DNA of 64,000 nucleotides from Candidatus Poribacteria bacterium (GTDB taxonomy: Bacteria > Poribacteria > WGA-4E > WGA-3G), in the NCBI GenBank assembly GCA_028820635.1, contig JAPPIG010000131.1, forward strand, positions 62,001-126,000, given 5' to 3'. This document shows, in pieces, positions 21,217 to 25,506 of this stretch. The notes under the pieces are model-generated. The model worked only from the letters and a program-made list of their open reading frames with translations, was not told the DNA's origin and searched no databases. Position 1 is the first letter of the stretch; each line of letters starts with the position of its first letter. Position numbers and translations under genes: made by a program.

Positions 21217-21661
21217 TACCTCCCCTGCATTATAGAATTTAGATTTGTAGTGCCGCGGTTGATTAAACGCGGCACGTATGATAAAATGTCTTTCAGATCC
21301 GGCGGATAAACATCAAAATCCCGCCTTCTACAGAAAACTAAACCTCAAGACTACATTAAGACAACCTTAATTAATAATATATCAAAATTATTGATATAAC
21401 TCAATACGGCTAATTGTATTCCTGTTTACCCTAAAAGTCAAATTAAATCTGCCAAAAATGTTAGATTTGCTTGAAAAAACACATAATTTTAGAATTTTAA
21501 GCGTTAAGAACTTTAAGAAATTTAGTAGTTTTGTCGGACGCAAGAAAACTTGATTAAAAAAAGATCTTTTGATATAATTTAGTTAATTCTATTCTAAATG
21601 TGTCTATTTAGCCGAAATTAGTAGTGTTAGGAACCACAGCTTCCATATTGTCTTTTCTATC
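21217..21661. other. 445-bp AT-rich intergenic region between divergent genes
   Basis: It separates the minus-strand DUF1111 gene from the plus-strand primase-like gene. A GTGCCGCG / CGCGGCAC hairpin lies at 21251-21276. The rest is markedly AT-rich, unlike its surroundings, with one good promoter at 21550-21578. Confidence 0.6.
21550..21578 (+). promoter_or_regulatory. sigma-70-type promoter for the primase-like gene
   Basis: TTGATT (21550-21555), a 17-base spacer and a perfect TATAAT (21573-21578) lie 84 bp before the ATG of the primase-like gene. Seen by eye; no start-site data. Confidence 0.6.
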
Positions 21662-23029
21662 ATGAATCCCTTAAAAGATCTTATTCAACGTTGTCATCAA
21701 CGACATAAAAACCCGCTTCGCCAGCGGAAGACAGTGGTAGCACCCGCACTGTACAATAAGGGTTATCCCTATCACTTCACAGTGTATTGCGCGCACAGAT
21801 ACCCAATGCTACTCACTGATTTGGAAACAGCAAACATCTCATTCATGCCCATAGGACAGGCACCAGATAGCGATCATGGTCCACGGACCTTGGGCGGCGA
21901 ATCTTTCTTAAGACGTCAGGGAACACAAGACTGGGGAATGAGACGATGGCATGCATCCTGGGGTATTCAGGTTTATACTGGTATTCCATCCGAACGCGAG
22001 GGCGCACGATGGCATGACTTTGATTTTACATATAAGGCTATTTGTGTTTCCCCTGATGCTATTCTCACGTGTATTGAGGCACTTGTTGACACTGTTCCAA
22101 ACCCATTATTAACGATGTCAAAATCTGGAGGATTACGCTTTTCTTGCCGGGTGCCGAATTACCTGCATCCAAATACCGAGAAAGCGAAACTTTACATCTA
22201 TAAACACACGCCAACTTCGGATAAATCTGACCAACGCGATCTGTATCTTGAAATCTTTGGTGAAGAAGGTTACAATCGTTGGGATGCGCGTTATGAAATT
22301 CTGCTTGGCAATCTGTTTGACCCACCTATTGTTGATAAAGAGGTTGTCTTTGCCCCTATTGATGCGCTTCGTGCTGCACTGCATGAACCCGCCCCCGAAA
22401 AAATAACAGAAAAACAAATTGCCACTGAAGTTCCATTTTCTCTGGGTTCGCATAATCTTGATCTTGCAAAAGAGACACTTGTAAAGCACGGTTTTTCTTA
22501 TGTCCGACAAGATAACGGTTCCCATCTTTGGATCCCACCTAATAGTGAGGTTGACGACAAATACATATCGCTATGGGAAAATGAAGAGGCGGTATGGTTA
22601 CGTGCCTCAACCACCGATATAGGACTTCCTACGCAATCAACACCAATAACGGATATATGGCACGACACAGGAATTATGCCACCGGCACCTCTTGCTGGTA
22701 TACCAGTGCCTGATAAGGTGCAAATAGTTCGGGAAGGAAAACTTAGTCCATTATCGATAAAACGCCCTTCTCCTGTGTTGTACAAGTCAGAACAAACAGA
22801 AAAAGTTTATAAGACACTCGAAAAGAACGGCGTTCAGATACAGGAAATTTTTGACCGGACAGACCGCATCCTCGGACTGATTGCGGAGGCAGGCACAGAA
22901 AAACACTACGATGCAGTATCCGATGCCAGCAACGGTGGTACAACTTGCTTAAACATGCCAACCTACAAATTAGCTGAAAAGATAGAAAACCGTTATCAAA
23001 ACCAAAACATTCCATTATACGAACGCTGA
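21662..23029 (+). pseudogene. N-terminal half of a primase-helicase-like gene, ended by TGA
   Basis: The 455 codons hold a PrimPol/AEP-like region. WHDFDF (Asp119, Asp121) fits the DxD metal motif, and SKSGGLRF (about 153-160) stands where AEP enzymes have their second motif. RWDARYEILLGNLFDPP follows. The last 50 residues (FDRTDRILGLIAEAGTEKHY) look like the start of a helicase: G411-T-E-K-H415 is where Walker A GTGKT would be, so it is degraded. The frame ends at TGA 23027-23029. After three more sense codons an ATG opens the next reading frame in the same phase. I therefore read it as one gene of about 1127 codons with one nonsense codon. A two-gene operon with a split helicase is the alternative. 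Confidence 0.6.
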
Positions 23030-23038
23030 AAACCTCGA

Positions 23039-25045
23039 ATGTACCTGTGGGAGCAGGTGAAAAAGATACCTATCGACGTTCGCATGGCAACACCATTTCA
23101 ATTGGGTAATGTCTGTGAAGATCCGGAAAGGTGCGATGCGATTGAAGAAAAAGGGGGCGATGCGCGCGAAAGTATCTGTCCACAATGTCCTGTCTATACG
23201 CAATGCCAACAGCGCGGATTTTTATCACAAGCATCCACATTAAAACACGCCAAAACGCAGATAGTAGCACTTCCCGAACTTTTTTTCGATCCACAACACG
23301 CTGAAATGGCAGAAGAAATCCTCATACAGATGGATGAGAAGGAAAGGCTTTGCATTATCGACAGAACACAAGCGTACAAACTGTTTCCCGTATGTAAGTT
23401 ATCCCAAAAATTATTGAAAGAATGGAGTGTGAACTGGCAAGGGACTGCCTTGGGAAATTTTGCTAAAGCGTTGATGCATGCCGTAGAAATCAAAAACAAA
23501 CCGCATGCGAATGCTGTTAAGCGAATCCGCACAGTAATACAAGCGTTTGAATGGCAACAAGAAAGACTCATCAAACAGATGTGTCAAGTCAATGTGAGAG
23601 GGAAGGTGATTGAACAGGGTTTTGTCGATCCCGATACAGGAAAGCAATTAGCACAATTTACTATTGAGTTTGAAGGGGACGCTTTTGCGTATATTCCTAT
23701 TGACAAAAACGCTGAAAAGAAACTTACAGCAATGAAACTGCCTGTTTTTGGCTTCAAGCGTTTTGCCCTTAATGAAGAAATAAAAATATTGATGTCCATG
23801 GCGCAAGCGATCCAATTGGGTATTTTTGCTGTAGAAACCGTCAAAGACATTCGGAAATTACCGACAATCTGCCCAGATTCAAACTGGACGTTTTGGCATC
23901 AACTCAAAAGTTTCTTCGCACACTACACGCGGGATGCCGATGCACCAATACGGTGGAATGGAAAAACCTTGAGGTTCTGGGTACCACCAGTGCTGCACCC
24001 AAACGTAAAACGTCTGTTGTTAATGTCGGTAAACCTCTCCGAACAACATCTTCGTAGAGCATTCCCAAATGAGAAAATTGAGGTGCATCACACCGAACCA
24101 ACAGCATGGGTTGCGGAAAACAAAGTCTTTCAGATTCGCACAGGCACCTATCCACGAAAAACGATTTTAGATTACAACAGTAACTGGGACCTCATCGGTT
24201 TGTCTAAAATGGGACAGCGCTTTTTCCGTGGTATCCGGGCTGAAATTGAAAGCGATCCAAGCGTTAAACATTCAATCATCACTTATAAGTCAATTGCCAC
24301 ACGGTTATCAGACGTCGAAAAAAAGAAGAATGTTTGTTTCGTAACACATTTCGAAATGATGGACAGTTTGCACACCGCTTTTGAAGAGACACATGTTCTC
24401 TGGATCATCGGCACACCCGAACTACGACAAGAACTTATTTGGCAGCGAGCACAAATCTTATTCGGAAACGACAAAGATCCTCTTTCCTATGAAGAAGACA
24501 TAGAATTCGGCCATTATAAAGACGAACGTATCCAGAGTGTTTATGAGCAGAATGTCGTCGCCAAACTCTCGCGTATTGTAAAGCGTGCCAAGTTAGATCA
24601 GTTACCGAATAAGAAAGTTATATTAGTCTCCAGTTTGGCACTGCCCCAAATCACCGACAAACCTGAAACACTTCTTTTTGACTGGGAAGACTTTGAAGTT
24701 GCTGGTGGACTTGACAAACTGCCGGAAGTGATAGCGACGCGCGAACGTTTTGAAACAGAACGCGATAATTTGACTGTTGAATCCAGCAGAGAAAAAGTGG
24801 AGGAAATCTTAGGATGCTCAGCGAGACAAGCAAACCGTGTGCTACAAAAACTTAGGGGAGGCACCCCACTTCGAATTCCCTTCCGAGAGCAAATCCTATC
24901 CCTCCTTGCCGATGGCGAGAAAAAAACAGCAGAATTTATTGATACTATTGAAGGACATCCAAAAGCAATAAAAAATGAACTCAGTCGTCTTGTAGATACG
25001 GGTGAAATTGTACGGGTTCAATGGGGTATTTACACCCTTCCGTAA
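23039..25045 (+). CDS. C-terminal helicase-like half, with Cys cluster and winged-helix tail
   Basis: The 668-aa frame is in the same phase as the preceding one. It opens at what would be the middle of a helicase: Cys26, 32, 47, 50 and 56 (CPQCPVYTQC) recall the Fe-S cluster of XPD/DinG helicases. CIIDRTQA (Asp109) stands at the DEAH position. RIVKRAK (512-518) stands at the QxxGRxR motif VI position. All three differ from the consensus at key residues. After WEDFEVAGGL comes a C-terminal winged-helix pair (about 570-668, REQILSLLADGEKKTAEFI). Without Walker A it should not hydrolyse ATP. No SD is evident at the ATG. Family placement is inference from motif order. Confidence 0.5.
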   Translation: MYLWEQVKKIPIDVRMATPFQLGNVCEDPERCDAIEEKGGDARESICPQCPVYTQCQQRGFLSQASTLKHAKTQIVALPELFFDPQHAEMAEEILIQMDEKERLCIIDRTQAYKLFPVCKLSQKLLKEWSVNWQGTALGNFAKALMHAVEIKNKPHANAVKRIRTVIQAFEWQQERLIKQMCQVNVRGKVIEQGFVDPDTGKQLAQFTIEFEGDAFAYIPIDKNAEKKLTAMKLPVFGFKRFALNEEIKILMSMAQAIQLGIFAVETVKDIRKLPTICPDSNWTFWHQLKSFFAHYTRDADAPIRWNGKTLRFWVPPVLHPNVKRLLLMSVNLSEQHLRRAFPNEKIEVHHTEPTAWVAENKVFQIRTGTYPRKTILDYNSNWDLIGLSKMGQRFFRGIRAEIESDPSVKHSIITYKSIATRLSDVEKKKNVCFVTHFEMMDSLHTAFEETHVLWIIGTPELRQELIWQRAQILFGNDKDPLSYEEDIEFGHYKDERIQSVYEQNVVAKLSRIVKRAKLDQLPNKKVILVSSLALPQITDKPETLLFDWEDFEVAGGLDKLPEVIATRERFETERDNLTVESSREKVEEILGCSARQANRVLQKLRGGTPLRIPFREQILSLLADGEKKTAEFIDTIEGHPKAIKNELSRLVDTGEIVRVQWGIYTLP

Positions 25046-25506
25046 CGAAAAGACAAAGTAAACATCTTTCCTACCTCTTTTAAACCCATCCCAAAACCAC
25101 ATAGGCGGGTTTGTAATACCATTTCTAAATAATGGGACATTATTTCATAAATCGGTTTGTCCGAATGCAACCCCCTCTTCTGTGGGAGCGACCTCCTGGT
25201 CGCGACCAGGAGGTCGCTCCTACAAAGAAACTCAAGATCGGAATGATACTTTATCAATTAGAAATGGTATTAGAAACCCTCCAACAAGAGTTGTCGGGTG
25301 TCGTTTCGCTCTACCCGACCTACAATACTGCGAATCTTGTTTATTCAGTCTGATAGATGCGATTTTCTAATCGCATCTACCGGGGGTATTCACTAATTGG
25401 ACTTTACCATAAAAACAAACGCCTATAATCAGGAACACTCGTTTGCAAATCTTGATATTTCAAGGTATACTTAATAAAAAACAAATAGATAGGTAGGATC
25501 CAAATA
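25046..25506. other. 461-bp intergenic region built from palindromic repeats
   Basis: No gene is seen. It holds the element at 25114-25272, a GTCGGGT..GCTCTACCCGAC repeat at about 25306-25328, and the hairpin AGATGCGATT-TTCT-AATCGCATCT at about 25356-25379. An AT-rich leader of the ArsA-type gene follows. Confidence 0.6.
25114..25272. repeat. 159-bp inverted-repeat element with a perfect 36-bp central palindrome
   Basis: The ends TAATACCATTTCTAA (25114-25128) and its exact complement (25258-25272) enclose a perfect 36-base palindrome at 25185-25220. One arm is GGAGCGACCTCCTGGTCG. The structure suits a MITE or REP pair. Similar GGAGCGA(C/T)CTCC units occur at 27605 and 56886. Confidence 0.75.

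Follow-up and report, generated by a model that had tools for sequence, protein, structure and literature searches.

What does a bacterium make from a long gene that carries a single TGA codon within its reading frame? This question is raised by a locus of Candidatus Poribacteria bacterium (assembly GCA_028820635.1, contig JAPPIG010000131.1), found in a stretch of 64,000 nucleotides that was analysed as a whole and is referred to here as the window (genome G000, contig C134, 62001-126000). The gene lies on the + strand at 21662..25045 and consists of 455 codons, a TGA (23027..23029), 671 codons and a terminal TAA (25043-25045). An earlier reading of the bare sequence, the original prediction, described two long in-phase frames parted by one TGA and three sense codons, and the frames are indeed so arranged (21662-23029 and 23030-25045), with the same TGA in three other genomes. 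In intact relatives one uninterrupted frame of about 1,130 residues is colinear with both halves. Judged by these, the gene ancestrally encodes one protein of ~1,130 residues.

The answer favoured here, at roughly even chances, is that the UGA of this gene is read through, probably as selenocysteine (Sec), and that two products result. The TGA is conserved, selection acts on both halves and straight past the TGA, a hairpin resembling a selenocysteine insertion sequence (SECIS) follows it, and the host has Sec machinery. Among the fates that the original prediction had offered, a TGA-recoded gene is best supported, by the shared TGA, the purifying selection on both sides, the hairpin and the machinery.

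An in-frame TGA shared across species

The same in-frame TGA is present in the window's genome and in three other species of the genus (G002, G008, and G010). The immediate flanks, YER*KPR (asterisk, TGA), are identical in all four. Further on, YER*KPRIYLWEQVKKIP[IT]DVRM in G002, G008, and G010 stands against YER*KPRMYLWEQVKKIPIDVRM in the window. Reading phase and spacing around the TGA are unchanged, and none of the four orthologues has a frameshift or a second internal stop. The window gene adjoins an ArsA ATPase gene, along with HslV and HslU genes (the latter two named by eye), and the order ArsA, membrane protein, HslV, HslU is common to the window, G002, and G008. The G010 contig ends just past the gene, so that neighbourhoods were compared for G002 and G008 only. 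In midpoint-rooted trees of either half, the four TGA genes are monophyletic with support 1.0 and group with nine uninterrupted sequences to make 13 in one clade, whose support is 0.976 in the tree of the C-terminal half and 0.823 in that of the N-terminal half. All nine of these sister sequences have Trp at the site. The in-frame UGA is kept in all four full-length members of the TGA clade; a remnant in G017 lacks the site.

Both halves are under purifying selection. The ratio of non-synonymous to synonymous substitution rates (dN/dS, by NG86) among the four TGA orthologues is 0.117-0.147 for the N-terminal half (455 aa, 21662..23026, +) and 0.100-0.130 for the C-terminal half (671 codons, 23030..25042, +), at dS values of 0.17-1.47. 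Uninterrupted relatives give 0.136-0.257 (the 25 closest of 120 pairs, 16 sequences), so the TGA genes, at 0.100-0.147, stand at or below them. The shared TGA and this selection indicate that the gene is not a recent pseudogene, as had been suggested, the G017 remnant at the same locus notwithstanding.

Selection also reaches into the codons that directly follow the TGA. The first ATG after it that is common to all four orthologues is codon 19 (23084..23086). Over codons 1-17 of the 18 that precede this ATG, parsimony with ties counted against synonymy finds nine synonymous and three non-synonymous changes, and codons 1-3 alone hold four synonymous and no non-synonymous changes. If the stretch were untranslated, the chance of at least 9 synonymous changes in 12 would be 7e-05 to 7e-04 (transition bias 1 to 8). 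Most probably the codons directly past the TGA are translated in phase, from which it would follow that ribosomes read through the TGA. A separate start nearby fits poorly, because the window's ATG at 23039..23041, which lies 9 nt past the TGA behind the KPR codons, gives way to ATC in two of the other orthologues and to ATA in the third, and is thus not a conserved start.

Such a shared stop is exceptional in the family. The taxonomic family was searched, in 58 genomes and with up to 12 candidates scored per genome, for matches to an uninterrupted relative (E <= 1e-150); among the matches listed, at least 46 of the 58 genomes are represented, and at least 107 matches span at least 1,090 of 1,134 residues. 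Ten of these 107 have a reported stop, three of them terminal (G061:C159, G031:C102, and G000:C20:7917) and seven internal. Four of the internal stops are the TGA orthologues and three are singletons elsewhere: a TAG at the Trp codon of residue 91 in G034 (L027:394-396, about L081:4897-4899), a chromosome-level metagenome-assembled genome (MAG) whose copy has an intact Walker A motif; a TAA in G080:C325; and a TAA near the start in G010:C103. Among the 107, the TGA is the only internal stop common to several species. G006:C132, outside the 107, is a broken copy with a TAA and a frame change. Across all gathered DNA, 20 pairs of same-frame runs (>=150 codons each) are parted by one stop; this stop is TGA in four of the pairs, precisely the four genes described here. 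Homologues do not always occur as two separate genes, most being single frames among the matches listed. The residue at the TGA position was read from an alignment of 60 distinct relatives longer than 1,050 aa, rather than all 107 (one of the 60, L068, has a TAA near its start): it is Trp in 45, Arg in five, Leu in three, Tyr in two, His and Phe in one each, and gapped in three.

A SECIS-like hairpin and the selenocysteine machinery

In all four TGA genes a hairpin, UACCUGU-GGGA-GCAGGU[G/A], begins 12 nt past the TGA. The window's version, UACCUGU-GGGA-GCAGGUG, occupies 23042..23059 (+). According to the legend of Fig. 2A in PMC13188914, a bacterial SECIS (bSECIS) has a loop of 3-9 nt, a stem of 4-16 bp and a G in the first two loop bases; the same source places it 16-37 nt from the UGA with an energy <= -7.5 (PMC13188914). 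The hairpin of the TGA genes lies within each of these bounds, having a GGGA loop that starts 19 nt past the TGA, a stem of 7 bp, and an energy, calculated for the isolated stem, of -8.0 to -8.3 kcal/mol. None of the 45 Trp-bearing relatives comes near them, their best hairpin reaching only -2.7, and none of the 60 long relatives has a hairpin at -8.0 or stronger, the cut being the window's own value. Counting the real one, 8 of the 1,106 codon positions of the window's copy give a hairpin as strong, and random synonymous recoding, drawn 5,000 times, matches it at rates of 0.9% and 1.7% for two peptides. Hairpins passing -7.5 follow 6 of 70 long-frame TGA stops; four of these stops belong to the TGA genes, and in the other two cases the hairpin is that of the tRNA-Sec gene, which lies behind selB. 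The base rate after other long-frame stops is 2/66 for TGA, 5/194 for TAA, and 2/133 for TAG.

Three of the four hosts have the machinery that would use such a signal. A tRNA-Sec with anticodon TCA is present in G000, G002, and G008, and none is over the cut-off in G010 or G017 (five genomes searched). SelB is over the cut-off in 52 of 57 genomes. The selD gene is found in 51 of 56 genomes with one TGA inside each match, and this TGA is internal in all 32 loci fetched (L127-L131 and L154-L180). These loci have a hairpin of the GCUCC-GGG-GAGC type ~15-17 nt past the TGA, its loop containing or adjoining GGG, and in these Poribacteria selD itself appears to encode a selenoprotein. G000, G002, and G008 each combine tRNA-Sec, SelB, and SelD.

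On the favoured account, the hairpin 12 nt past the TGA would recruit the host SelB with Sec-tRNA(UCA). A fraction of ribosomes would then place Sec at the ancestral Trp position and go on to a 1,127-residue protein, while the remainder would terminate there, leaving a product of the N-terminal 455 residues. A single mRNA would thus give two products, whose ratio should track the selenium supply. The long form would comprise a primase-like N-terminus (by motif only), a region that has P-loop ATPase motifs in some relatives and contains the five Cys, and an end resembling a winged helix. We infer the inserted Sec, the two products, the selenium dependence and the protein's function from the sequence; as a guide for the two products only, 30-40% of ribosomes are reported to recode a Sec UGA in Escherichia coli when selenium is sufficient (PMC4513850). 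Like the bSECIS selenoproteins FdhF and SelD, the gene has an in-frame UGA followed within 16-37 nt by a small apical loop with G in its first two bases, in hosts with tRNA-Sec, SelB, and selD. Unlike them, it has mostly Trp and never Cys at the site, and it belongs to no known redox enzyme family.

Weighing selenocysteine against other readings

Several observations weigh against Sec. Cys is found at the site in none of the 60 long relatives, whereas selenoproteins nearly always have Cys relatives (PMC13188914, PMC1914089); the predominance of Trp fits plain misreading by tRNA-Trp as well. Two relatives with neither stop nor Trp at the site, L035 and L068, pass the -7.5 criteria through a different hairpin at -7.9, and L050 reaches -6.8 (all three are gapped at the TGA position). 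L116 and L122, which have Arg there, share the 7-bp GGGA shape at -5.9 and -5.6. The host selD hairpins reach -7.5 in only 1 of 32 cases by isolated-stem energy, so that the measure sets a higher bar than the host's own control has to clear. Synonymous constraint over the hairpin is only mild, with lower values in 22 of 368 windows, and given conserved residues the stem codons for Y, L, E, and Q would all remain unaltered with a probability of 0.063. G010, which is 73% complete, has no tRNA-Sec, SelB, or selD over the cut-off. The four orthologues amount to two lineages, the window and a trio, which makes the independent support thin. Finally, G017, the closest relative at the locus, retains only about the last quarter of the gene in a decayed, frameshifted state (L065:1-1000, G017:C109), and the first 107 bases of the contig hold no match to the gene. 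Compared with the window, this remnant still has a low dN/dS (0.057/0.377), so the loss is probably recent.

Some of these points bear on the foremost alternative, in which the ordinary tRNA-Trp(CCA) reads the UGA at a low, useful rate and restores Trp. The same two isoforms would arise, selenium would play no part, and the hairpin would at most slow termination. Though rather unlikely, this reading has several points in its favour: the ancestral residue is Trp (45 of the 60 long relatives and the whole sister clade), TGG to TGA is a single step, Cys relatives are lacking among the 60, and similar, weaker hairpins stand in two relatives without a stop. Stop-codon read-through with a canonical residue is alike in that the UGA stands where the ancestor had a Trp codon and may yield two isoforms per mRNA (an idea found in PMC1914089), but here the UGA is kept across species together with a SECIS-type hairpin, which under Trp insertion would be a coincidence. 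A 4-bp anticodon stem of tRNA-Trp has been linked to UGA reading (PMC13092985). The tRNA-Trp anticodon stems of G000, G002, G008, G009, and G010, read by eye, have the ordinary 5 bp, so the mechanism as described there does not apply to these five genomes of the window's genus. Separately, tRNA-Trp of G023, from a sister genus, has a C27-A43 mismatch and with it a 4-bp anticodon stem (L149:1469-1544); its copy of the gene keeps TGG.

For Sec, then, speak the hairpin, the machinery and the absence of a strong hairpin from the Trp-bearing relatives, and for Trp the ancestral Trp and the lack of a Cys relative. Either answer is unusual, since PMC1914089 describes selenoproteins without Cys homologues as scarce and canonical read-through as quite rare in prokaryotes. 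Tentatively, and with somewhat less confidence than the favoured account, Sec may have replaced Trp, not Cys, in a DNA-handling protein, by a TGG to TGA step and the rise of a SECIS hairpin from synonymous codons, and have been kept as a selenium-sensitive switch between products of 455 and 1,127 residues.

It is improbable that the locus now holds two genes, the C-terminal half beginning by termination-reinitiation and the two proteins acting as a split pair. The TGA does fall between the Walker A and Cys-cluster positions, the window has its ATG 9 nt past the TGA, and the ATG at codon 19 is common to all four copies. The near ATG is nevertheless ATC, ATC, and ATA in the others, codons 1-17 before the shared ATG evolve as coding sequence (9:3), and phase and spacing are preserved in all four copies. 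Nor is there a promoter-like site on the + strand at the junction, the nearest upstream ones being at 22248 and 22305.

More doubtful still is a pseudogene, a copy that was already dying when it took the nonsense mutation. Single nonsense alleles do occur in the family (the TAG of G034 and the TAAs of G080:C325 and G010:C103), as does the truncated remnant in G017, but the TGA of this gene is common to four species, in copies free of frameshifts and second internal stops whose dN/dS (0.100-0.147) is no higher than the 0.136-0.257 of the closest uninterrupted pairs, and dS values of up to 1.47 disfavour a recent exchange of the four. A genome-wide code change in which UGA means Trp is rejected as next to impossible even though the TGA stands at a Trp site, because TGA terminates this very gene in G008 and G010 as well as other frames (70 of 397 distinct long-frame ends, from unfiltered frames with the four sites counted) and the tRNA-Trp anticodon is CCA.

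A Poribacterial protein family and its motifs

The gene belongs to a multi-copy protein family found only in Poribacteria in this analysis. The window's C-terminal half as query matches 30 of 59 genomes and, by genus, 3 of 19; outside the taxonomic family it gives one marginal match (E 7.9e-4). The relatives JAJEDN010000056.1 and OX638352.1 are Candidatus Poribacteria MAGs, and searches of phages, viral contigs and plasmids, with one or two queries each, returned no relative. The window's genome holds five more uninterrupted paralogues of 965-1,143 aa, and a distant relative of 1,048 aa, L019, with the motif TPAQTGKTT. The N-terminal and ATPase regions of the family are clearly related to L019 (profile probabilities 100% and 97.6%). 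L019 itself (L019:5333-8479) has a possible zinc-finger insert, seen by eye, and a Dam methylase gene (Pfam) nearby; it may resemble the active ancestral form more closely. The paralogues L018 and L020 lie near ParA-like genes, with a Rep_3 initiator also nearby in L018, and this proximity hints at a plasmid-like or mobile-element origin of the family.

The label 'primase-helicase' rests on motifs, and the original prediction that had applied it is not confirmed: searches of Pfam, NCBIfam, PHROG and PDB with the halves, relatives and sub-domains gave nothing meaningful apart from the winged-helix end, and in these or in PADLOC only that end, in two relatives, rose above a curated cut-off. A hit of the N-terminal half to phenyl_P_beta (NCBIfam, E=4e-4, 18.9 bits against a cut-off of 469) was set aside as chance. 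The winged-helix-like C-terminal end (24953..25042, +) is an AbiEi-type match (PADLOC AbiEi, E=1.4e-05); Pfam AbiEi_4 is above its cut-off in the relatives L017 and L114, and below it in the window copy.

In the window copy, the motifs named by the original prediction are all present: GTEKHY, a degenerate Walker A (22892..22909, +); IIDRTQA, degenerate, at the Walker B position (23354..23374, +); RIVKRAK, likewise degenerate (24572..24592, +); and the five-Cys cluster (23114..23206, +), whose spacing looks Fe-S-like by eye and whose metal binding is putative. The ATPase motif loss is real, but it belongs to the lineage. Walker A in the form [AG]xxxxGK[ST] is intact in 12 of 72 sequences, all of them among the 60 long relatives, and reads AETGAGKS/T or similar at the GTEKHY position (AETGSGKS in G034). 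Most of ten aligned P-loop-bearing members read IIDE or VIDE at Walker B, and some P-loop-bearing relatives have QIIGRxGLNR as the counterpart of RIVKRAK. All five Cys are invariant among those ten together with L019. Four of the five are invariant among the 60 long relatives, the fifth being Cys in 53. The ATPase motifs are lost throughout the window lineage, though some relatives keep them, and because of this loss the likeliest role of the long form, held with low confidence, is that of a DNA-binding or scaffold protein. The suggested domesticated non-helicase is compatible with such a loss and does not exclude recoding.

The motif order of Walker A, Cys cluster CPxCPVYxxC, IIDE, and a SATL-like stretch resembles the layout of DinG and XPD, Fe-S helicases of superfamily 2 (SF2). 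The best local alignment with DinG-like proteins lands on the family's Cys segment, and PADLOC PprDinG gives E=0.06 in one relative. A profile comparison with DinG by hhalign is not significant (probability 0.6%, with 0.3% for a reversed control and 1.2% for a SelD control), and unlike SF2 Fe-S helicases the window copy, with GTEKHY and IIDR, has neither Walker A nor Walker B intact. A likeness to the archaeo-eukaryotic primases (AEP) and PrimPol presumably lies, by eye, in the Asp at WHD and in the KSGGLRFS and WDAR stretches. The PrimPol-like DxD of the original prediction, WHDFDF (22010..22027, +), is a candidate metal-binding motif of which the first Asp alone is conserved in the family (59 of 60 long relatives), the second position being Asp in 20 of 60. 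No profile match to AEP or PrimPol turned up in Pfam or PDB. The good promoter also proposed there does exist as TTGATT-17-TATAAT at 21550-21578, which fits 10 of 12 positions, but such sites are no commoner in the region than in shuffles (10 found, shuffle mean 9.6). Downstream of the gene, a perfect 36-base palindrome, GGAGCGACCTCCTGGTCGCGACCAGGAGGTCGCTCC, is present at 25185-25220.

A literature search listed two papers that join Poribacteria with selenocysteine, none that joins them with selenoproteins and, by title and abstract opening, no selenoprotein helicase or primase and no Trp-codon case; a term search of the main text of PMC13188914 finds no mention of helicase, primase, tryptophan or Poribacteria. 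If Sec is inserted at this UGA, the gene would represent another route for Sec into proteins, at sites that searches for Cys/Sec pairs miss by design. Restoration of Trp, if that is what happens, would make it a rare case of bacterial read-through that several species have conserved. The locus also brings forward a large, uncharacterised Poribacterial protein family with repeated loss of ATPase motifs.

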